Assembly: GCA_039803925.1 (NCBI GenBank)
Contig: JBDRZL010000019.1
Coordinates: forward strand, 1-41,748
Reading direction: 5' to 3'
Length of the DNA stretch: 41,748 nt
Source of the DNA: a candidate division WOR-3 bacterium
Lineage (GTDB): Bacteria; Hydrothermota; Hydrothermia; Hydrothermales; JAJRUZ01
The notes under the pieces are model-generated. The model ran no database searches. It had not been told where the DNA came from and saw only the letters and a program-made list of their open reading frames with translations. Shown piece by piece: positions 25,070 to 41,447 of this stretch. The translations under genes were made by a program, and so were the position numbers. The stretch's first letter is position 1; each line of letters starts with the position of its first letter.

Positions 25070-25694
25070 TTTAGAAAAAGTAATTTATCCTCCTCTTTAT
25101 GTAAATACCTATATTGTTTGGGATCAAAAGAAGAATGCTATTATCATTGATCCTGGTGGAAGTTATGAGAGTGTTAAAGAAATTCTTATAAAAGGGAATT
25201 TAAATTTGAAGGCAGTTTTTGTTACCCATTCCCATTTTGACCATGTTCTTGGTATTCCTATGATAGAATGTATTGATTCAATTCCAGTTTATATTCCTGA
25301 AAAGGATTTAAATCTTTATAATTCTGCAAGAAATTTTACAAAAAATTTTTTAGGTTTTGATCCTGGAGATTTTAAAAAACCTGATTTTTTACTCAAGGGT
25401 GGTGAGGAAATTAATATAGGAGAAATAAAAATTAAGGTTCATCATGTGCCCGGACACACTATGGGTCATCTTCTTTATGAAATAGATGAAAAGATTTTTT
25501 GTGGAGACTTAATTTTCTCAGGAAGTATAGGTAGAACAGATTTTCCTGAAAGCTCATGGAAAGACATGAAAAATTCCCTTTTATACTTAATTAATAACTT
25601 CCCTTCAAATTATGAACTTTACCCTGGGCATGGACCTAAAACAGATATTGAGAAAGAAAAACTGGAAAATCCATTTTTAAAGAACCTTTTTTAA
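25065..25694 (+). CDS. Metallo-beta-lactamase-fold hydrolase (glyoxalase II-like), probable ATT start
   Basis: A hydrolase of the GloB-like metallo-beta-lactamase superfamily. It contains THSHFDHVLG (HxHxDH), HHVPGHTMGHLLY, FCGDLIFSGSIGRTDF and a late YPGHGPKTD, covering all metal ligands. The first ATG/GTG/TTG in the frame is TTG at 25206, which would delete the first two beta-strands. The open frame upstream encodes the expected NLEKVIYPPLYVNTYIVWD and IIIDPGGSYES, reaching back to ATT at 25065; the frame is closed by a stop at 25044. GAAAGG at 25049-25054 sits 10 bases before the ATT. With this start the protein has 209 residues, normal for the family. It overlaps the purH stop by 5 bases. 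Confidence 0.75.
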   Translation: MNLEKVIYPPLYVNTYIVWDQKKNAIIIDPGGSYESVKEILIKGNLNLKAVFVTHSHFDHVLGIPMIECIDSIPVYIPEKDLNLYNSARNFTKNFLGFDPGDFKKPDFLLKGGEEINIGEIKIKVHHVPGHTMGHLLYEIDEKIFCGDLIFSGSIGRTDFPESSWKDMKNSLLYLINNFPSNYELYPGHGPKTDIEKEKLENPFLKNLF

Positions 25695-27629: not shown

Positions 27630-28153
27630 TATATTTCTTCTTTTAGTTCTTCCTGAGATGAACCCCTTGGAATAACTATTTCTTCTATTTCATTTAAATT
27701 GTAGTATTCATCAGAAACTCTTATAAGTTCAAGGGAAGTTGCACCTTTCATTGGTCCTATAGTTATAACTCTACAACCTTTTCTGTTTAGTTCTTCAATA
27801 AGGGGAACAAAATCTCCATCACCTGTAACAAGGATAATTTGTTCTAAATAATCAGAGGCTTTAACAATTTCAAGACAAATTTCAAGGTCCATGTTTGCTT
27901 TTAAAGAGCCGTCAGGTAAATGTTTTATCTGTTTTGTCACAACTCTATAACCCATTAAGGAGAGAGCATCTATCAATCTCTTTCTGTGCTGATCCTCTGG
28001 ATTATAGGGGACAAAACAGACTGCTTTGAAGGGTTCGCCATATTTATTTTTTATGAATTCAAGGAATTTATCATATCTTACGCTCTGGTTAAATTTTTCA
28101 AAGGTTGCCTGTAAATTTTGAACATCTATATAAATTCCATATTTTTTATTCAT
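27626..28153 (-). CDS. NYN-domain (LabA/DUF88) PIN-like protein
   Basis: A 175-residue protein of the NYN/LabA group of PIN-like folds, predicted metal-dependent RNases. Acidic residues characteristic of the fold are in YGIYIDVQNL (Asp10), KANMDLEICLEIV and ILVTGDGDFVPLIEEL, followed by the GCRVITIGP strand and the SLELIRVSDEYYNL ending typical of LabA-like proteins. AAGGAG lies 7 bases before the ATG. It overlaps mazG by 8 bases and the lipoprotein gene by 4. Its RNA target, if any, is unknown. Confidence 0.85.
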   Translation of the reverse strand: MNKKYGIYIDVQNLQATFEKFNQSVRYDKFLEFIKNKYGEPFKAVCFVPYNPEDQHRKRLIDALSLMGYRVVTKQIKHLPDGSLKANMDLEICLEIVKASDYLEQIILVTGDGDFVPLIEELNRKGCRVITIGPMKGATSLELIRVSDEYYNLNEIEEIVIPRGSSQEELKEEIY

Positions 28154-28943
28154 ATTTTTTCTCCTTGTTTTTTAAATTATTTTTTGCTTTTTCCCATAAT
28201 TCATCCATTTCCTTTATACTTAAATTATAAAAGTTTTTTCCCTCTTTTTCAGAAATTGAAAGCATTTCATTAAATCTCTTGATAAACTTTTCGTTTACCT
28301 TTGAAAGTGCTATCTCTGCTGAGATTCCGAGGTGTCTTCCTATATTAGTTAATACAAAAAGTATATCCCCCAGTTCTTCTTCTATCTCTTCCTTATCTTT
28401 TTCTTTTATGGCATTTCTTAATTCTTCAATTTCTTCTTTTAATTTACTAAAAACTTCATCAGCATTACTCCAATCAAATCCTATTCTACCTGCTCTTTTT
28501 GATAATTTTTCTGCCATTAAGAGTGCTGGGAAAACTTTATCCTCTATATCAAGACCCTTTTTATTTTTCTCAATTTCCCATTTCTTTAAAAATTCCTTTT
28601 CTGAAAGATTTTCTCCTTCAAAAACATGAGGATGTTTTTCAATCATTTTTTTTACAACATTAAGTATAATATTTTCCTTTTTCTCTATGTTTTCCCTTTC
28701 AATGGCATCAAGCATCATGAAAACTGTTAAAACAAGGTCCCCCATCTCCTCCTTTATTTTTTCCCTATCATTGAAATTTATTGCACTTATCACCTCATAA
28801 CATTCTTCAAGAAGTTCTCTTTTATATGTGTATAAATTCTGTTTTTTATCCCAGGGACAGTTTTCTCTTAAAATCTTTACAAGTATTAAGAGTTTTTTTA
28901 AAGGCTCTTTTTCTTTTTCAATTAATTCTTTTAAATCCTTCAT
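28146..28943 (-). CDS. mazG: Nucleoside triphosphate pyrophosphohydrolase MazG
   Basis: A 265-residue two-domain MazG, which hydrolyses nucleoside triphosphates to monophosphates and pyrophosphate as a housecleaning activity. The N-terminal domain has the signature NCPWDKKQNLYTYKRELLEECYEV and EEMGDLVLTVFM; the C-terminal domain repeats the acidic motif as EEIEELRNAI and EEELGDILFVLTN. Length equals the E. coli protein closely. The start overlaps the upstream peptidase gene stop (TAATG), tying it to a secretion-related operon without evident functional link. Confidence 0.95.
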   Translation of the reverse strand: MKDLKELIEKEKEPLKKLLILVKILRENCPWDKKQNLYTYKRELLEECYEVISAINFNDREKIKEEMGDLVLTVFMMLDAIERENIEKKENIILNVVKKMIEKHPHVFEGENLSEKEFLKKWEIEKNKKGLDIEDKVFPALLMAEKLSKRAGRIGFDWSNADEVFSKLKEEIEELRNAIKEKDKEEIEEELGDILFVLTNIGRHLGISAEIALSKVNEKFIKRFNEMLSISEKEGKNFYNLSIKEMDELWEKAKNNLKNKEKKYE

Positions 28944-31900
28944 TACTCACCCACTGCAATTTTTGCCTTGATTTTCTTATTCTCTTTTCCCCTTTTACCC
29001 TTTAAAAGTAAAAAATATATTCCCTTTGATACTTTATTTCCATAAAAGTCTCTCAAATTCCATGTAACTTTATGTTTTCCCTTTAGATTAAGGGGGCTTC
29101 CCTCATCATCGGTTATAAATTCCTTTATAAGTCTTCCTGAAACTGTATAAATTTTTATTTCCATTTTTTCTGCTTCCTTTGTTAATTCATAAAATATAAC
29201 TGTTTTTCCTTCTTTTGCCGGATTTGGATAGTTCCCGTAATATAATATATCAAAAGGCACAAAAACTTCCACCAAAAAGTCCTTTTCACTTTTATTTCCC
29301 ATTGCATCAAAAACTAAAAGTTTTAACGGGTATATGCCTTCTTTAAGTGGTCCTTCTTTTAAATTTATTATAACTCCCTTTTCCTTTTTTATCATCGAAT
29401 TTTCATAATTGATTTTTGAATTATTAAATATTATTTCTGGTTTTTTAAAGATAAGGTCTATTCCTGAAGAATCCCTTAAAAGAATTTTTAAATCAAGATT
29501 TTTTGATATCATGAATTTTTCTTCCTCAATTTTTCTGTTTTTATAGTAAACTTCAATTAAAGGACCTTTATTATCATTTGTATTAAAAAGGGCAATTTCA
29601 CCTTTTTGATTTAAATAGAACTCAATTTTATTATTTAAACTATCATAAACATAATCAATTTTGTGCCATAAGGAGTCCTTATCTATTTTTATTATAACAT
29701 CTTTTTTTTCATTAATATTTTCAAAAATAAATTTACCGATTGTATCCTCTTTGTTATTCTCTTTTATTCCTATAATTTTTATTGTAGAATCTTCTATTGA
29801 AGTATTTTTTAATTTTTTTAACTCATATATTGATAAATTATTAGATGGATAAAATTCCATATTGAATTTTAAATTTTTAAAATTTATTTTACCTTTAAAA
29901 CCTGAGGTATCCACATATATGTAAGGATTCCTTATTATACCCGAATCTGAATTATTGAATTCACTTATTTCTTTTACACTATTTTTATAATCAAGAATTA
30001 TTTTATAGCTGTAATAAGTACTGCAGGGAAGGGGAATTTTTAGAAGTTGTGTTTCTTGTGATTTAAAGGTATTTATAAAAACAGAGTCTTTTTTTAAGAA
30101 GCTTCCTGTTTTTATTATATAAAAAATGTAAAAATTATTTGCATCCCTTCCACCTGAATTTGTGAAAGGAAAATTTATTTCAGGAAATTTTAAAGAAGGT
30201 GTTATATTTATTAAGTTCTTTTTTAAAACAAGGTCAGCTAAAGTTTTATTTTTTAAATAAAGGGTATCGGAAAAGTAGCTATTAAAGAAGGTGTCAGTTG
30301 CAATAAATGCATAGTGGAAATATTTTCTATCAAAAGGCGGAAGAGTTATATTTGTTTTGAAAGTATTTCTACTTGTTCTTGACATTGTAACTCTGATTAA
30401 ATTTTGTGGATTTAAGGTATCATTCATAGAATACCATAATTCACAGGATTTAAGAGGATAAGAAGCACTTAATTTTGCATAAACTCTAAAGGTATCTTCT
30501 GAGTAAATGTCCGGTTTAAAATATATTGAATCAACATTTAAAATTTTTACACTGAGGTTCCCCTTTGAAATTATTTCTTTAAAGGGATTTAAACCAAAGG
30601 CATAAAGGTATATTTCTGCTTTTGCCCTTGTAATTGTTTGAGGAATCTGGAATTTAATTTTTATCTCCCCATTATCAAATGCTTTTGTATACAATTCTCT
30701 TAAAATTATTTTATCCTTTAAATTTTTATAGATTATTTCCCAAGCTGAACTTCCTGAAACAATTTGTGGATTTTGAACATAAATCAAAGCACTGTCTAAA
30801 GGATTATAGTAATTTTTATCGGATTTAACATTTACCTCTTCTAATTCAGGTAAATCTAAAAGCGGGTCTCCGAGTAAATTTGATGTTTTTAAAGTTGTTT
30901 CAACAAATTTATCAAGAATTGAGAATCTTGACAGTAAATACATTCTTGAGTAAAGAACAAGGTCCCCGATTTTATTTATTGAATTTCTTAAATAACCTAT
31001 AAAAATTGATTTTGTATAATCGGAACTTATATCAAAGTTTAAATTACCAGGTTCTTTTCCACTTCCAGAAAGGGAAATTGATCCAATAGCTCCCCTTTCA
31101 GGTAAAAGGAGAATTTCTTCACCAAAAGCTCTTGCATCTGTCATACCGAATTCTCCTGTCCAGCATGATAGGGCTGTAAAGAAATAACATTTTTTATAAT
31201 TAGTTGTTTCCCAGAGGTCTTCCTGTCTGAATGCACCTTTTACCCATAAAGTGTGTATTCCTCCATGCCCTATAAAATTAAAAATTGATGCCCCATCAGA
31301 AAGGTAATTAATTAAATTCTCAGGTGTTTCGTTTTCATCAGGTTCAACATAAGTCATTCCTTTTTTCATCAAGGATTTTAGAAAGTTATTTATCTGTGTG
31401 TATATATCACTTCCTTGACCTGTTTTTCTTTCTGTTGCTAAAATAAAATGCCTTCTCCATATACCTAAATTTTTATCTGCATAGTCTTTTATTTTTCTTA
31501 AAACAATTTTCATTTCAATTTTATTCTGAACTGGAATTCTTGAAACAACTATATCAGGAAATGGGTCATCACCTATTATGTTTGAATAGTAAAAATCAGA
31601 GGAGAAAAATCCTGTAAATATAGCGTTAGATTGGAATTGTTGAAAAGTAGAAGGAAATAGAAAGGTTGGAACTTTATCTTTCATAATACCCTTTAAAATA
31701 TCTCTTGGGTCTTTGCTTGCATCACCTATGATTATTAAATAATTAAATTTTGGCTCTTTTGTTATATAAAAGTATTTAAGAAATTTTCTTATTGCAAAGG
31801 GACTTTTTATCCCATAGTTAAATTGAACATAAATATCTTTGACTGAAAAGGCTTTTATATTATAGTTACCACCCTTAGGAGATGAGTGGAATAGTACTAA

Positions 31901-33259
31901 TGAGTCAGCAAACTCTTTAAATTCAGGATGATATAAAATTATTGCATTGGCACCACTTACCTTTCTAACATCTTTTTCTATCCTGTATAAAATAATAGAA
32001 TCAGGTGATAAAGTTTTATCTGTTACAAAAAATAAAGAGGGTAAATTTTCATCTATTTTTGCCTTTAACCCATAATAGGTTTTACCATTTTCAATATAAC
32101 TTATGATTTCAAAATTTTTGTAATTTTTTTTGTTTATATTTATAAAGAATAAAGGTTTATTTTTAAAACCTTTTATAACAATATTTTTATTTATATTCTT
32201 TAATTCAAATTTTAAATTATCTAATTTATTTGAATTAAGCAAAAATTCTCCCTCAATTTCTATATAATTCAAATAATTTGGTATATCTGATTTTTCCCAT
32301 ATAAAAAATAAAGAATCAGAATTTAAAATAAATCCTTTTACATTTACTTCTATGGTATACGGATTCCTTGAGTTATAAATGAAGCTGTCAATAAAATATT
32401 TTCCAATTTTTAAATAAATTTTATGAATCCAGTCTATACTTTGAGTTTCTTCTGAATCAAAATTTAATCTTAGTTTATAAAGATTAGAATCAATTGCTAA
32501 AGGGATTTTTATTTTTAAAGTTTCTTCTTTTAACTTTGTTAAATATCTAAAAAACCATATATCCTCTGTATCAGAATGAGCGGGGTCAAGATCAGGAAAA
32601 TATCTTTCCTCTTCAAAATGGAATTTGAAAAATCCACTATTTATATATGAAGTGTCATTATCTGGTTTTGCATCTTCTTCTGGTATTTCCACTTTCGGAT
32701 TTCTGTTAAAGAAAAGAATATAGATATTTTCAAAGGAATAAAGGTCATAAAAAGAATTTTTACCACTTAGCTTTTTTGCATAAAAAATTATTTCATCAAA
32801 AGGATCAAATTTACCATCATTTAAACCTTTTGTTATAATAGGTAATTTTCCCTCTTTTCCTAAAATTGTTATGTAATTTGGATTAACTGTATCAAGATTT
32901 ATTCCTTTTGAAGATAACATATATCCCTTTATTGAGTAAAGTCCTTCATCTTTTGTATAAATTAAAACTAAATTTTTAGGTAAATTTAAGGGTGTGTCAG
33001 TTTCTAAAAAACTTGTCAGATTTACATTTTTAAACTCTTCAATATATGAAGGATTTAAGGCTAATTTTTTTAAAATATTTCCATAGAAATCAAGATTTTT
33101 TGAATTAGTTAAATTTTTTTCAAAATTAAAATTAGATTCTCCAATTGCTATTCTATAAGGTCCAAAGTATCCCTCTCTATATATCTTAATTTTATCCCTT
33201 ATGTTATCATTAATAAGAAAAATTCCTGTTTTTAAGAAAATTATTAAAACAAGATACAT
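28943..33259 (-). CDS. Gingipain-type peptidase C25 with sorting-type C-terminal domain (PorU-like candidate)
   Basis: A 1438-residue secreted cysteine peptidase. Order: hydrophobic N-terminus (YLVLIIFLKTGIFLI), a beta-rich pro-region to about 430, a C25 catalytic domain at about 435-800, beta-sandwich domains including a CARDB-like segment at about 1005-1105 (LPCSTYYSYKIILDYKNSV), and a FlgD/T9SS-like domain from about 1330. The catalytic pair is His665 (FIGHGGIH) and Cys699 (ALSCWTGEF), 34 residues apart, close to the His-Cys spacing in gingipain RgpB. The last domain has NYPNPAKEG, IYTVSGRLI and SKGIYFLLL. PorU, the sortase of the type IX secretion attachment complex, is a C25 protein; the neighbouring PorV-like gene favours that over a plain exported protease, but this is inference. 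Confidence 0.85.
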   Translation of the reverse strand: MYLVLIIFLKTGIFLINDNIRDKIKIYREGYFGPYRIAIGESNFNFEKNLTNSKNLDFYGNILKKLALNPSYIEEFKNVNLTSFLETDTPLNLPKNLVLIYTKDEGLYSIKGYMLSSKGINLDTVNPNYITILGKEGKLPIITKGLNDGKFDPFDEIIFYAKKLSGKNSFYDLYSFENIYILFFNRNPKVEIPEEDAKPDNDTSYINSGFFKFHFEEERYFPDLDPAHSDTEDIWFFRYLTKLKEETLKIKIPLAIDSNLYKLRLNFDSEETQSIDWIHKIYLKIGKYFIDSFIYNSRNPYTIEVNVKGFILNSDSLFFIWEKSDIPNYLNYIEIEGEFLLNSNKLDNLKFELKNINKNIVIKGFKNKPLFFININKKNYKNFEIISYIENGKTYYGLKAKIDENLPSLFFVTDKTLSPDSIILYRIEKDVRKVSGANAIILYHPEFKEFADSLVLFHSSPKGGNYNIKAFSVKDIYVQFNYGIKSPFAIRKFLKYFYITKEPKFNYLIIIGDASKDPRDILKGIMKDKVPTFLFPSTFQQFQSNAIFTGFFSSDFYYSNIIGDDPFPDIVVSRIPVQNKIEMKIVLRKIKDYADKNLGIWRRHFILATERKTGQGSDIYTQINNFLKSLMKKGMTYVEPDENETPENLINYLSDGASIFNFIGHGGIHTLWVKGAFRQEDLWETTNYKKCYFFTALSCWTGEFGMTDARAFGEEILLLPERGAIGSISLSGSGKEPGNLNFDISSDYTKSIFIGYLRNSINKIGDLVLYSRMYLLSRFSILDKFVETTLKTSNLLGDPLLDLPELEEVNVKSDKNYYNPLDSALIYVQNPQIVSGSSAWEIIYKNLKDKIILRELYTKAFDNGEIKIKFQIPQTITRAKAEIYLYAFGLNPFKEIISKGNLSVKILNVDSIYFKPDIYSEDTFRVYAKLSASYPLKSCELWYSMNDTLNPQNLIRVTMSRTSRNTFKTNITLPPFDRKYFHYAFIATDTFFNSYFSDTLYLKNKTLADLVLKKNLINITPSLKFPEINFPFTNSGGRDANNFYIFYIIKTGSFLKKDSVFINTFKSQETQLLKIPLPCSTYYSYKIILDYKNSVKEISEFNNSDSGIIRNPYIYVDTSGFKGKINFKNLKFNMEFYPSNNLSIYELKKLKNTSIEDSTIKIIGIKENNKEDTIGKFIFENINEKKDVIIKIDKDSLWHKIDYVYDSLNNKIEFYLNQKGEIALFNTNDNKGPLIEVYYKNRKIEEEKFMISKNLDLKILLRDSSGIDLIFKKPEIIFNNSKINYENSMIKKEKGVIINLKEGPLKEGIYPLKLLVFDAMGNKSEKDFLVEVFVPFDILYYGNYPNPAKEGKTVIFYELTKEAEKMEIKIYTVSGRLIKEFITDDEGSPLNLKGKHKVTWNLRDFYGNKVSKGIYFLLLKGKRGKENKKIKAKIAVGE

Positions 33260-34554
33260 TTAAAATTTTCTCCTTTTTTATTTTTTAAAAGATAAATTCC
33301 ATCTTTAAATTTTCCTTTAATTTTTCTCCCTGAAATATTATAGATTTCTATTTCTTTTTTATCAGTGGGTAATGAAAAAGTTAAAAATTTTTCTTTATCT
33401 TTTTTACTCGTATAGGTAAATGTTTTCTTTTTAAAGTAGATATGACTCAAGCCATAGGGAAGTGTTTCTGTATATTTACTTCTATCGCTTTGAAAAAAAA
33501 CAAAAAATTCATTTTCTGAGGTGATAAGGGGTATCGGAATTTCATTTTTTCCAAGAGAAGTGACAAATAATTTTTTTTCTATTAAAGGATTTTTGTATTT
33601 TATAAGGTAAATATCACTATTTATGTTATTTCCCTTTTCATAAAAAATAAAAAGGGTGTCAAAGAAGAAAATCGAAGTTGGATTTTTAAGGTAAAAACCT
33701 TCTCCTTCATCTAAAAATAAATTATTTTTTGTATTGAAACTGTAATCTGTTATTTTTAAAAAAAGGGAATCATTCCTTATGTAAGTTATATATAATTCAA
33801 TACCGGTAAAATTCACAGAGTAGTCATATCCTCTTGCAACTTCAAAGGGTCCCTGAAAAATGTTATTTTTAAATTTCCTTGCTAAAATTTTTTTTGATAT
33901 TGCTTCATAGTAAAATATCACCTTATCATTATTCTTTAAAGTTATTATAAGGGGATTTTCTGCTATCTCATTTTCTTCAGTTATTTTCTTATTGGTCCAG
34001 TTACCAAAATTATCTCTCTCTGATAAATAAATGCTTTCTTCCCATTGCTTTATTTTCCAGTATACAACATAGATTCTGTTATCAAGGTCACAGGTGGCAC
34101 TGGGAAAAAGATCAAAGGAATTTGTATCCCTTGATACATTTTCAATACCAGGGAAATATATATAAGGGGGAGAGGAGTAAGAATAAAATATATCAGTCTG
34201 CCACCAGAAGGGGTATCCTCCTAAATTTCTTTCTGAATTCCAGAAAATATGTAGTTTGAAATTGTAAGAAGAATCTATAACAAGAACAGGGGAACCATCG
34301 TAAGGCGGTCTTGTTGAAGGAGGGTCTTCAAAAATTTTAATTGGTGTATCTGTAAAGGTTGTAGTTGGTGTTCTTAAAATATAATAAATATCAGAGTTTA
34401 GGTAATGGGGGTATCCTGTAAAAACTAAAAAGGCATATCCATTTTTTTCAGCAACACTAAAATTTTTGTTATCAGTTAAAAAATAGTGTCCACTTACATA
34501 CTTTGAATATAAAAGGGAATCTGAGGAAAAGTTTAAAAATAAAAATAAAATCAT
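33244..34554 (-). CDS. Secreted propeller-like protein with short sorting-type C-terminus
   Basis: A 436-residue protein without a named family. Residues 1-14 are hydrophobic (MILFLFLNFSSDSL). The body has repeated four-strand-like units with aromatic motifs (LHIFWNSERNLGG, RIYVVYWKIKQWEE, KVIFYYEAISK, TLFIFYEKGNN, EFFVFFQSDRSK), suggesting a five- to seven-bladed beta-propeller of the sialidase-like type. The last 35 residues contain EIEIYNISGRKIKGKFKDGIYLL, a compact version of the T9SS sorting-domain pattern. The gene is coupled on both sides: ATGA overlap with the barrel gene upstream and a 16-base overlap with the C25 gene downstream. A PorZ-like role is possible but unproven. Confidence 0.7.
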   Translation of the reverse strand: MILFLFLNFSSDSLLYSKYVSGHYFLTDNKNFSVAEKNGYAFLVFTGYPHYLNSDIYYILRTPTTTFTDTPIKIFEDPPSTRPPYDGSPVLVIDSSYNFKLHIFWNSERNLGGYPFWWQTDIFYSYSSPPYIYFPGIENVSRDTNSFDLFPSATCDLDNRIYVVYWKIKQWEESIYLSERDNFGNWTNKKITEENEIAENPLIITLKNNDKVIFYYEAISKKILARKFKNNIFQGPFEVARGYDYSVNFTGIELYITYIRNDSLFLKITDYSFNTKNNLFLDEGEGFYLKNPTSIFFFDTLFIFYEKGNNINSDIYLIKYKNPLIEKKLFVTSLGKNEIPIPLITSENEFFVFFQSDRSKYTETLPYGLSHIYFKKKTFTYTSKKDKEKFLTFSLPTDKKEIEIYNISGRKIKGKFKDGIYLLKNKKGENFKCILF

Positions 34555-35387
34555 TTTTTTATAGAAAGGTTTATTACTTCTATGAGACCAAGTTCATGAA
34601 TTCTCAAGGAATAGTATATTTCAAAATTTTTAAAGACAAAACCAGCTCCGAATCTTGGTTCTCTATCATAACCTGCAAGTATTGAAAAAATATCCTTAAT
34701 TTTTATTTCCATTCCTGATGAATAAAGAAGTTCTATATCATATCCGATTTTACCAGATAATGCGAGACTTATAAATTTTAAATTTTTTTTAAAGGTTAAG
34801 AAAGTTAAGATTTTAATATTTTCTTTATCTTCACTTCCTCTGTTCCATAAAATTTTAGTTCCAAAGGGGTCAATTAAAGAAATTCCAAGATAAGTGTTTA
34901 TTCCTTTTAATTTAAAATCTTTTTTAAAGCCAAGGTCAAAACCTATTCCCTTTCCTTTTAAATCCTTAAATCTTTTATTAATAAGTTTAAACTGGAAAGC
35001 AAGATTTAATTTTTTAAACTTAAAAGGAATTAAAAAGGCTTCTTCAATACTTGAAAATTCACCTGTTTTTAATTTAGGGATAGTATCATTTTCTTCTAAG
35101 AAAGGGTATTCTGGGATTTCATCAATCTGGGTTCTTATCCATAAGAAACCCGTTTTAATATTTTTAAAGGGAAGAGAAAATCCAAAAAGATAGTAATTTG
35201 CTAAAAGTGCAAAGTTTTGGGTTCCAAAATTTAAGCTTATAAAATCGGGTATTAAGGAGGGATTTAATGGTGTTAGATTTATATTATTTTCTGAGATATC
35301 AGAGAAACCAAGTGATACTCCTTTTGCATCGGGTAATTCCTTTAGAAATTCAAGAGCATAGTAGGTAAAAATTATTATTAAAACCAT
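34551..35387 (-). CDS. PorV/PorQ (UPF0164)-like outer-membrane barrel protein
   Basis: A 278-residue predicted outer-membrane beta-barrel, first gene of a seven-gene operon. The N-terminus is a hydrophobic leader, then DAKGVSLGFSDIS and TPLNPSLIPDF, which corresponds to the gene-family opening in which an early Gly-rich strand precedes an NPA-type turn. Later GIGFDLGFKKDFKL, YLGISLIDPFGTKILW and a terminal IYYSLRIHELGLIEVINLSIK follow the PorV/PorQ pattern (barrel strands ending with an exposed LG..h.isl strand). In P. gingivalis PorV carries substrates to the PorU sortase. Sequence identity is not high enough by eye to exclude another FadL/UPF0164-like barrel. Confidence 0.65.
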   Translation of the reverse strand: MVLIIIFTYYALEFLKELPDAKGVSLGFSDISENNINLTPLNPSLIPDFISLNFGTQNFALLANYYLFGFSLPFKNIKTGFLWIRTQIDEIPEYPFLEENDTIPKLKTGEFSSIEEAFLIPFKFKKLNLAFQFKLINKRFKDLKGKGIGFDLGFKKDFKLKGINTYLGISLIDPFGTKILWNRGSEDKENIKILTFLTFKKNLKFISLALSGKIGYDIELLYSSGMEIKIKDIFSILAGYDREPRFGAGFVFKNFEIYYSLRIHELGLIEVINLSIKK

Positions 35388-37992: not shown

Positions 37993-40203
37993 ATGAATTT
38001 TTTTATTTTTTTAGCTTTTAATATAATAAATGTAGATTTAAATTTCAGGAGAGAGCAGATTTTATGGAAATGGGATTTGCGAAATTTTTCAAATTTAAAA
38101 ATAAATTCTTTCTATCCTCTTACTTACATAGGACCTGAGGGTGGAATAATTTTATATCCTATAACTTCTGAAGTTAATTTAAAAAAGGTGGTTTTGCCTT
38201 CTTTTTTAGAGTATCATAAAAGTGAGAATGTTTTTGCTGGTGATACTTTTGAGATTGCTATACCGTATTCAGGATTAAATTTTAGGTTCGGTAAAAGCGG
38301 GGTAATGATTTCATCTAACACATTTCTTCTTTTGAGGGATACCTTGTCCTTTTACTTTACTGATGATAATTTTGCCACGTTAAATATAGTGAGTTTAAAT
38401 TCAAAAATTGGAGCTTTAGATGCGCTTGGTTCAACAATTTATATGATTTCCGGTGATTCTCTTTTAAGGTCAGATAATGGCGGTTATAATTTTAATTTTA
38501 TTAGAGATCTTGAAAATTATTTGATTCAGGGTAATTATAACTATGTTATGGATATTTTCCCCTTTAACCAACAGGTGGTTGCAATTGCAGCTTATGGTCA
38601 AGAGACTAAATTTTTGATTTCAACTGATGGTGGAAACAATTTTTCTGCTTACAATTTACCCTTTTCTGGAGATATTTATTCCTTGAGATTTGCTCCTCAG
38701 AATCAAAATGTTATATTTTTAGATCCTGCATCAGGCGGTGTTCTATACACTACAGATGCTGGTGTTACCTGGAATAATGTAAATTTAATACCAAATTTTC
38801 CTCTTTATCCTGGTTTTATCATAGATATTTTACCTTTAAATTCAGATACCTTTTTAATATCTTCTGTAATTGATAGAGGTATTTTTAAAGCTTATAGAAC
38901 CTTTGGTAATAATTTTTCTTATTCCTATCTTGATACCACTTTAGTTCCCTTTTTCTTTGAACCCACCTATAGAAATTCAAAATTGAATGATACTTTTTAT
39001 ATTGGTTCAAATGATGGGGTTTATTACACTGTTAACAGGGGAAATACATGGACAAGGTATAAGAATCGTTTAAAGGCAGTTTTACTTTTGGGACCAGGAC
39101 AGGTTACATCAAAGAAAGACACAACTTTTTTAATTACAGATGGAGGAATTGTTTATAGAAGTTTTGACCTTATAAATAGTAGTTTTTCTGAGCTTCCTTT
39201 TAAGGGTAATTTAATTTTCTTTGGTAACAATCTTGTTGAAAATTTTTATTTTTCTTCAAAAAGCCTTTATCTTCTAACATCTAAATTCAGAATATTTGCT
39301 TCTCCTTTCCAGAGAGTTTTGTTTTTCTCAAATAATGCGGGTGAAAGTTTTACTTTAAAAAATTCTAATGGTTCTCTTTTAAGTTATTACGATATATTAC
39401 CTGGTTCAAATACAAATACTCTTTATCTATGGAATGATTCAACTCTCATAAAATCATCAGATGGTGGAATTACTTTTGACACAATTTATTCTGGTACTAT
39501 AAGAAGTGTAGCTGGTGAAGGTGATACAATTTTTGTTTTGAAAGAAAGTGACACTCTATATGCAAGTTTTAATGGATTAAATTTTTCAGCTTTAACATAT
39601 TTACCTGATGCAGGTGAGTTATACTATGTAAAAGGTTCTCCCTTTGTATTTTATTCTAATACCTTTAAAAACTATCTTATGTCTTATGATTTAAATAACT
39701 CAACAATAGATACGGCTATTAAAAGACCGAATAACTCATCAATTCTTATTCATTCTTCACTATCCTATGATGGATTCATCTATTCTCTTTTCCTTAACAA
39801 TCAAACTGGAGAAAAAAATATTTATTACAGAAAAATTCCAGATGGAAATATAAATTCGGTTCCTATTAATCTTGAAGCACCTGTTGGCATCTTTGCTCTT
39901 GAAGGTGGTTATGTTCTTATATATGAGATGGGAAGGGGACTTTATATTATAGGTGTAACTTCTGTAGCTGAAAGAAATAGTGAGGATGTAAAATTGTTAT
40001 ACGTAACTCCACTTGTAAGGAATAATCTTGAAATAAAAGGATTTAGAGGTTCTATAAATTATGGAATTTACGATATAACTGGAAAGAGATTGCTTTCTGG
40101 AAATATTTCTTCTAAAGAAAGGGTTTTGAATTTGAATAATTTTAAGTCAGGAACTTATTATATAAAATTAAACAATAAAATTTACAAGTTTATAAAATTT
40201 TAG
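37993..40203 (+). CDS. Secreted Asp-box beta-propeller protein with T9SS-type sorting domain
   Basis: A 736-residue exported protein. Residues 1-14 (MNFFIFLAFNIINV) form a short signal. The body contains at least six BNR/Asp-box-like repeats (LRSDNGGYNF, STDGGNNF, TTDAGVTW, TVNRGNTW, SNNAGESF, SSDGGITF), indicating a sortilin/Ycf48-like propeller. The C-terminus (NYGIYDITGKRLLSG, then FKSGTYYIKLNNKIYKFIKF) is a good match to the T9SS type A sorting pattern. No catalytic residues are recognised. Length and architecture (propeller plus sorting domain) recall PorZ, but PorZ propellers are of a different type. The stop codon TAG shares its G with the first base of tRNA-Ile. Confidence 0.8.
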   Translation: MNFFIFLAFNIINVDLNFRREQILWKWDLRNFSNLKINSFYPLTYIGPEGGIILYPITSEVNLKKVVLPSFLEYHKSENVFAGDTFEIAIPYSGLNFRFGKSGVMISSNTFLLLRDTLSFYFTDDNFATLNIVSLNSKIGALDALGSTIYMISGDSLLRSDNGGYNFNFIRDLENYLIQGNYNYVMDIFPFNQQVVAIAAYGQETKFLISTDGGNNFSAYNLPFSGDIYSLRFAPQNQNVIFLDPASGGVLYTTDAGVTWNNVNLIPNFPLYPGFIIDILPLNSDTFLISSVIDRGIFKAYRTFGNNFSYSYLDTTLVPFFFEPTYRNSKLNDTFYIGSNDGVYYTVNRGNTWTRYKNRLKAVLLLGPGQVTSKKDTTFLITDGGIVYRSFDLINSSFSELPFKGNLIFFGNNLVENFYFSSKSLYLLTSKFRIFASPFQRVLFFSNNAGESFTLKNSNGSLLSYYDILPGSNTNTLYLWNDSTLIKSSDGGITFDTIYSGTIRSVAGEGDTIFVLKESDTLYASFNGLNFSALTYLPDAGELYYVKGSPFVFYSNTFKNYLMSYDLNNSTIDTAIKRPNNSSILIHSSLSYDGFIYSLFLNNQTGEKNIYYRKIPDGNINSVPINLEAPVGIFALEGGYVLIYEMGRGLYIIGVTSVAERNSEDVKLLYVTPLVRNNLEIKGFRGSINYGIYDITGKRLLSGNISSKERVLNLNNFKSGTYYIKLNNKIYKFIKF
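40191..40196 (+). promoter_or_regulatory. Candidate -10 box of tRNA-Ile inside the upstream coding sequence
   Basis: TATAAA, followed by 6 bases and then base 1 of the tRNA at 40203. This is the same spacing as from -10 boxes to start codons elsewhere in the window, so transcription could begin at the mature tRNA 5' end. A weak TTAAAC (40168-40173) lies 17 bases upstream. AT-rich coding sequence makes chance occurrence likely. Confidence 0.3.
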
Positions 40204-40307: not shown

Positions 40308-41447
40308 ATGAGGAAAATATTAGGAGCTCTTGCACTCCTCTTAGGAGTGCTTTTTGCTACAGAGACAAGAGTGACTACATTTGGTGGAGTGGCTGATTTT
40401 TTAAAGGATGATGCTCTTGCTCTTACATATCCTTCCCAGATTCTTTCTTTTCCTGGTTATCTTGTTCTTGAGGCTTATGATGAAAATACACTTATATCAG
40501 GTAATGCTTACTTAAAAGGTTATTTTGGTCTTGGAGAAAACCATTCAAAGGGTGTGTTTGGAGTTTATTTAAATATTCCAGTATATACATATCCTTACAG
40601 AACTATAAAAGGTTTTATGCTCTCTTATGGAAAATATTTAGGTGAAAAGCTTGGTTTTGGACTCAATTTTGGATTTGGAAATTACAGTAGAACCTATGAA
40701 GATACAACAGGTGCTGGTTTTAAAAATAAGGAAAGTGCAAACATAATTTCCTTAAATCCAGGCATTACCTTTTATCTCTCCGAAACCGACTTTATTGATG
40801 CAGCTTTTAAATTTAACATTCACTCTTTTGATGTAAAGAGCGCCATACCTAGTGATACAACAAAAGCAAAAGGAACTTCTGATATTTCTTTTGATGCAAG
40901 ATATATGAGGTCCCTTTCAGAATACACTTCACTTGTAGTTGGTTTTCACTTTTTAACCTCTGATAATTCCACAGAAGAAAGAGCGGGTGGGCAGACTTCT
41001 GAATTTACTGATAAATTTTCAAGTTTTGGACTCAATATTGGAATTAACACCCAGCCTATAGATGTCTTAAACTTTATTTTAGGATTTCAGATTACAAGTG
41101 CCTCCTGGGATTATGGTGATGCTGGTAAACAGGGAAGATTTTCTTTTGGAGCAGTTACAGGACTTGAAGCAGACCTTGGAAAATACTTTCTTTTGAGACT
41201 TGCAGCAAGAAAAGATCTCTGGGGAAGTTATACTGATGATTACTTCTCTTTTCCAACTGGAAAGTTAAGTCTTACAACACAGGATCTACTTCCACTTGCC
41301 CTTGGTTTTGCTTATAAGAGGGGTAATTTAAGAGTAGATGCTCAGGCTTCTCCTGATATTTTATATAATGGTCCCTATTTCATTACAGGAAAACAAAGTA
41401 ATTTCTTTACCTCAATAAGTATTCTTTATTCCTTTTCAAGTTACTGA
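40308..41447 (+). CDS. Outer-membrane beta-barrel protein (PorV/UPF0164-like or porin)
   Basis: A 379-residue protein with a clear signal peptide (MRKILGALALLLGVLFA, cleavage near residue 17-18) and a body of amphipathic strands rich in Gly, Tyr and Phe. The start of the mature part, TRVTTFGGVADFLKDDALALTYPSQI, resembles the N-terminal turn of PorV/UPF0164-like barrels of FCB-group bacteria. The sequence ends in SISILYSFSSY, a likely terminal barrel strand. It has a strong ribosome-binding site and its own terminator, so it is probably abundant. No promoter is visible between the tRNA and the gene, so co-transcription with the tRNA is likely. Confidence 0.8.
   Translation: MRKILGALALLLGVLFATETRVTTFGGVADFLKDDALALTYPSQILSFPGYLVLEAYDENTLISGNAYLKGYFGLGENHSKGVFGVYLNIPVYTYPYRTIKGFMLSYGKYLGEKLGFGLNFGFGNYSRTYEDTTGAGFKNKESANIISLNPGITFYLSETDFIDAAFKFNIHSFDVKSAIPSDTTKAKGTSDISFDARYMRSLSEYTSLVVGFHFLTSDNSTEERAGGQTSEFTDKFSSFGLNIGINTQPIDVLNFILGFQITSASWDYGDAGKQGRFSFGAVTGLEADLGKYFLLRLAARKDLWGSYTDDYFSFPTGKLSLTTQDLLPLALGFAYKRGNLRVDAQASPDILYNGPYFITGKQSNFFTSISILYSFSSY

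Follow-up and report, generated by a model that had tools for sequence, protein, structure and literature searches.

A candidate second type IX secretion attachment complex, with a propeller subunit, in a candidate division WOR-3 bacterium

Introduction

The closest described counterpart of the locus reported here is the PorU:PorV:PorQ:PorZ attachment complex of the type IX secretion system (T9SS) of Porphyromonas gingivalis (PMC5562754, PMC8545088), in which PorV anchors PorU and PorQ anchors PorZ (PMC5562754), and PorZ binds anionic lipopolysaccharide and presents it to PorU (PMC8545088). Two further names, PorU2 (NF052324) and PorV2 (NF052325), are given in NCBIfam to putative T9SS proteins of Bacteroidota; a full-text literature search by name found only these putative database names and no paper describing either protein, and our literature searches found none on a T9SS in WOR-3 or candidate phyla. 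Here, we describe an operon encoding a PorV-family barrel, a beta-propeller protein and a C25 peptidase in a candidate division WOR-3 bacterium of the phylum Hydrothermota (assembly GCA_039803925.1, contig JBDRZL010000019.1, positions 1 to 41,748; this whole stretch of 41,748 nt is called the window). The operon probably encodes a second T9SS attachment (sortase) complex, a paralogue of PorU-PorV that is closer to PorU2-PorV2, together with a propeller subunit typical of the phylum.

Results

The three genes are on the minus strand and run from 35387 to 28943 in the order barrel, propeller, C25, with overlaps of 4 nt (ATGA) and 16 nt. A first-pass annotation, made from the sequence alone, had called them translationally coupled, and the open reading frames (ORFs) proved to be exactly as it described, 278, 436 and 1438 aa long. 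The features of the operon are as follows.

34551-35387, minus strand: PorV-family outer-membrane beta-barrel (PorV2-like), 278 aa, first gene of the block
33244-34554, minus strand: sialidase-like beta-propeller protein, 436 aa, with a degenerate C-terminal sorting tail at about residues 384-436
28943-33259, minus strand: C25 cysteine sortase-like protein of the PorU superfamily (PorU2-like), 1438 aa, comprising in order a PorU-type N-terminal region, a caspase-like domain, a CARDB-like domain and a type A C-terminal domain (CTD)
31265-31267, minus strand: codon of catalytic His665, counted from the start codon at 33259; gingipain-aligned, invariant
31163-31165, minus strand: codon of catalytic Cys699, counted from the same start codon; gingipain-aligned, invariant
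28946-29230, minus strand: type A T9SS CTD of the C25 protein, residues ~1344-1438 (TIGR04183, 30.6 and 33.9 bits)

The operon resembles the P. gingivalis complex in having a C25 sortase-like protein with its own CTD, a PorV-fold barrel and a presumed surface propeller, and its barrel and C25 genes adjoin, as do porU and PorV-like genes in the Bacteroidia loci read here. It differs in that the window's genome also holds separate canonical PorU and PorV, that the block has one barrel instead of two and one propeller instead of two, the latter without a sequence match to PorZ, that the C25 protein carries an extra CARDB-like domain, and that the propeller and C25 genes overlap in one operon. With PorU2/PorV2 it shares a C25 protein that exceeds PorU in size and has a CARDB-like domain following its caspase domain, an adjacent PorV-family barrel and a coexisting canonical PorU. 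However, its proteins score far under the curated PorU2 and PorV2 cut-offs, it has the additional propeller gene, its C25 proteins measure ~1400-1630 aa against ~1600-1740 aa for PorU2, and its gene order varies within the phylum.

The C25 domain (PF01364) was matched at 195 bits over residues 440-803. His665 and Cys699, which the first-pass annotation had reported as an intact pair, align with the GHG and C residues of gingipain R, are invariant in 12 homologues and are present in at least 70 of the 72 C25 proteins compared. The T9SS-type C-terminus that it had also proposed was confirmed by TIGR04183 (30.6 bits, cut-off 23). The C25 domain with its His/Cys dyad, the PorU-type N-terminal region and the type A CTD are all present in one protein. 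Against the PorU model NF033707 the protein scored 219 bits, with its best stretch at positions 8-734, and missed the curated cut-off of 420. A profile of the C25 family searched against the PDB matched PorU (6za2) at 232 bits and gingipain R at 119 bits. When we built profiles from the N-terminal and caspase regions of PorU and PorU2, the window protein and its relatives in similar loci (hereafter, module C25) scored 96-232 bits and other C25 proteins 24-72. In a tree of the caspase core, the other C25 proteins formed a clade of their own (support 98), and module C25 fell outside it, beside Bacteroidia PorU2 with modest support (SH-aLRT, an approximate likelihood-ratio support, 88). A CARDB-like domain following the caspase domain, which we observed here and which belongs to no published definition of PorU2, occurs in module C25 and most Bacteroidia PorU2 and essentially not in canonical PorU.

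Gingipains and other exported C25 proteases have the same catalytic dyad and caspase-like domain as module C25, but they make up a separate clade, score weakly with the PorU-type N-terminal plus caspase profiles and reach half the PDB profile score. A gingipain-like identity was therefore rejected, the PorU score being twice that for gingipain and the protein lying apart from exported C25 proteases in the tree; the first-pass annotation's placing of the protein with PorU rather than with exported proteases held. The same evidence bears on a broader alternative, namely that the C25 protein is an exported surface protease, itself T9SS cargo, with a barrel dedicated to its transport or anchoring and a propeller exported alongside it as an adhesin or glycan-binding protein; the whole would be a cargo cassette and not part of a sorting machine. 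All three proteins do look exported, the C25 protein has an ordinary type A tail, and in the same genome other PorV/PorQ-like barrels immediately follow genes with sorting tails, which suggests that pairs of a barrel and its cargo exist. We consider this explanation rather unlikely, since the C25 protein has a PorU-type N-terminal region, a PorU score twice its gingipain score and a position outside the clade of other C25 proteins, and since the barrel-C25 pair has a PorV2-PorU2 counterpart in most of the Bacteroidia genomes sampled.

The barrel matched the PorV/PorQ family model NF033709 at 22.3 bits, below the curated cut-off of 90; relatives at the same position in other families of the phylum scored 102 and 104 bits. 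Members from those other families scored better with the PorV2 model than with the equivalog models for PorV and PorQ, the best of them reaching 130 bits with NF052325. An AlphaFold2 model of the window barrel (mean predicted confidence, pLDDT, 85) had PorV of F. johnsoniae (8gl6_F, 6h3i_F) as its top PDB fold match, with a template modelling (TM) score of 0.74, and classical porins followed at ~0.35. A 12-member profile of the barrel family, searched against the whole PDB sequence set, found PorV as its sole match (E 3e-7). The predicted structure is thus that of a PorV-fold barrel, as the first-pass annotation had supposed in calling it PorV/PorQ-type. In the barrel tree, the module barrels formed one clade (support 99/93), and a split with support 100/98 separated them and Bacteroidia PorV2 from the canonical PorV of both phyla. 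One other barrel of the window's own genome also fell on the PorV2 side, with weak support.

The propeller was modelled with a pLDDT of 81, most blades being at or above 85-90 and the tail below 50. Its PDB fold matches were sialidases and propeller lectins (TM ~0.5), matches that are generic for sialidase-type propellers and say little on function. Homologues from other families of the phylum have tails at the same position, two over the TIGR04183 cut-off (28.7 and 34.9 bits) and one just below it (22.3); their Pfam tail scores reach 43, and they also match Pfam BNR_4. Members from the window's order have a shortened tail that escapes detection, and the tail of the propeller family profile showed a weak, non-significant likeness to gingipain CTD structures. 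Of the first-pass description, a propeller with a sorting tail, the propeller fold stands and the tail is seen in homologues but not in the window protein. The suggestion that it is the counterpart of PorZ failed: PorZ was rejected for lack of any sequence match to NF052228, and full-length PorZ (two propellers plus CTD) was found in none of 14 genomes of the phylum, while three Bacteroidia controls were strongly positive. A PorZ-like role for the propeller would be an analogy and not a result.

A profile of module C25 separates these proteins (at least 484 bits) from canonical PorU (at most 390). With it, the class was found in 29 of 147 genomes of the phylum, in 14 family groups. We read 31 loci, 15 at first and 16 that were fetched later and kept out of profile building. 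The propeller adjoined the C25 gene or lay one gene from it in ~25 of the 31 and the barrel in 22, and most of the remaining loci end at contig ends. In the held-out genomes, the proteins encoded beside C25 scored 160-413 bits as propellers and 143-287 bits as barrels. In genomes of the window's taxonomic order, the genes run barrel-propeller-C25; in the others, they run propeller-C25-barrel. In Bacteroidia, PorU2 was over its cut-off in 49 of 60 genomes, and 17 of 20 PorU2 loci had an adjacent barrel; a propeller gene stood beside PorU2 in none of those 20 loci.

Individual loci varied. Two genomes of one family (G203 and G204; L171-L174) have two copies of module C25, one near the propeller and the other beside the barrel. 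Two of another family (G051 and G199; L060:9375-10346, L170:9198-10166) have an extra PorV-like barrel between propeller and C25, so that this block holds two barrels. In one locus (L164, G121:C46), the reading frame of module C25 is interrupted.

The window's genome has further T9SS genes. An 1800-aa ORF (G000:C10) matched the SprA translocon at 298.6 bits (cut-off 200); the identification comes from the TIGR04189 profile, since a phmmer search of the PDB with this protein gave no match. Sorting tails were matched 45 times, 39 of them over the cut-off. On contig C9 there is a full-length PorU-type C25 protein, whose match spans positions 4-1094 of 1095 and, at 381 bits, narrowly misses the cut-off of 420. 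It groups with Bacteroidia PorU (support 98), and PorU-profile matches occurred in all 60 genomes of the phylum sampled. Contig C22 encodes a PorV scoring 199 bits, compared with 22 for the window barrel. Because the C9 gene matches PorU over its whole length, the window C25 is not the PorU orthologue. The first-pass annotation had seen in the operon a minimal, stand-alone sorting module made of attachment-complex components. The stand-alone module was rejected, SprA and the canonical PorU and PorV being encoded elsewhere; its view of the proteins as attachment-complex components is borne out in part, SprA and the 45 tails supporting a T9SS context, but cannot extend to the main complex, given the C9 PorU and the better PorV. 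On the three points by which it had proposed to be judged, the barrel was no nearer to an unrelated family, the C25 protein did not group with exported proteases, and a T9SS core gene was found.

These copies also speak against the view that the window operon is the working canonical attachment complex, made of diverged PorU, PorV and PorZ, with the C9 protein as an accessory copy. A barrel gene beside a C25 gene does resemble the porU-porV adjacency of Bacteroidia, and the propeller recalls PorZ. However, the C9 protein is the one with the full-length match and the grouping with Bacteroidia PorU, its counterparts occur throughout the phylum whereas the window module is confined to 29 of 147 genomes, and the C22 PorV outscores the window barrel by the figures above. 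We regard this view as highly improbable.

Six more barrels of PorV/PorQ type, scoring above or close to the cut-off, are encoded in the same genome. Several such barrels lie directly downstream of tail-bearing genes (L047, L048, L049 and L050; contigs C21, C13 and C1), as though a shuttle were reserved for some of the cargo. In one of these loci (L048:3735-6567, G000:C13), the gene for a BNR-type protein of 653 aa, which has a good T9SS tail, precedes that for a PorQ-like barrel; this pair is a candidate PorZ-PorQ, in which only the tail of the BNR-type protein matches the PorZ model.

Downstream of the C25 gene, four more genes with short overlaps (MazG, NYN-domain, DUF4837 and one other) reach position 25691. 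The first of them overlaps the C25 stop codon.

28146-28943, minus strand: MazG-family gene (PF03819, 94.9 bits)

MazG is the sole downstream neighbour kept at C25 in all other genomes of the window's order (G001-G004 only). Since only MazG is kept, the four genes look like lineage-specific passengers, and MazG itself is probably a passenger of the operon. Elsewhere in the window, 37993-40203 encodes a BNR/sortilin-like propeller protein of 736 aa, whose T9SS tail scores near the cut-off and which is also found near the operon in G001, and 40308-41447 encodes a 379-aa protein with weak matches to PopA-type porin and PorV family models.

Discussion

We favor the explanation that the operon encodes a second attachment complex, in view of its genes and their predicted folds, the catalytic residues, the family placement, the conserved neighbourhood and the coexistence with canonical PorU and SprA. 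By homology, the complex might work as follows. Cargo with type A CTDs would leave the cell through SprA. The PorV2-like barrel in the outer membrane would dock the C25 protein by means of the latter's own CTD, and may additionally collect cargo. The His665/Cys699 dyad would then cleave off the CTD of the cargo and join the C-terminus so formed to an anchor at the surface, and the propeller, adjoining C25 as a PorZ-like partner, would bind a carbohydrate or glycolipid and present it to the sortase.

A sortase-derived quality-control or regulatory protease at the surface, which would degrade stalled T9SS cargo or process a few partners without transpeptidation, is conceivable, since the dyad is intact, no sequence feature tested here separates peptidase from transpeptidase, and the genome already has a canonical sortase. 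Nothing found speaks positively for it, and a sialidase- or lectin-type propeller partner better fits a glycan-linked reaction; we consider it very unlikely.

Several results weigh against a second attachment complex of PorU2-PorV2 kind. The window C25 scored 144 bits with the PorU2 model NF052324, below the curated cut-off of 450 (the best among 60 genomes of the phylum was 195 bits), and the barrel 20.6 bits with the PorV2 model NF052325, below its cut-off of 325. The PorU and PorU2 profiles built here score module C25 about equally, and an approximately unbiased (AU) test does not reject the alternative grouping of module C25 with PorU (p 0.51). CARDB matches are weak in PorU2, the window C25's own match is below the cut-off, and the barrel tree has several long branches. 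For the window propeller, neither TIGR04183 nor Pfam tail models gave a match at E<=1, which suggests a degenerate tail, and the 436-aa protein has no match to the 757-position PorZ model. Lastly, of the T9SS core genes searched for, SprA was found as described, but profiles for the motor and ring found GldL in 0 of 14 genomes of the phylum (3 of 3 Bacteroidia controls positive), GldN in 0 of 6 (one positive control), and no GldM in the window's own genome, the only one searched and without a positive control; secretion may work differently here.

Since the NCBIfam cut-offs for PorU, PorU2, PorV and PorV2 were all missed, we place module C25 in a divergent branch of PorU-like proteins, one that leans to PorU2 by its CARDB-like domain and is a candidate member of that family. 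The window module is most likely a variant of a PorU2/PorV2-type sortase module with a propeller subunit, not described in the literature searched. For the system as a whole, the findings support the T9SS parts at the outer membrane and the surface; the motor half was unrecognised, which falls short of a complete classical T9SS. The motor may be absent or unrecognisable here, perhaps in the form of distant PorL/M/N analogues.

In one locus of the genome (L050:7053-15393, G000:C1), genes for a protein with a sorting tail, a PorQ-like barrel and a TPR protein precede ExbB-, ExbD-, ExbD- and TonB-type genes, the latter being a possible alternative energy source. A more far-reaching picture, which we hold to be unlikely as a whole, is a dedicated second attachment pathway with its own sortase, barrel, glycolipid-presenting propeller and subset of cargo, in a phylum whose T9SS lacks a recognised PorLM-type motor and is perhaps powered by ExbBD-type proteins.

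These results indicate that Bacteroidia share a paralogous sortase-barrel pair with a different phylum, in which the operon also encodes a propeller as third subunit. They raise the question of why a bacterium would have two T9SS sortases, and whether these serve different cargo or different anchors.

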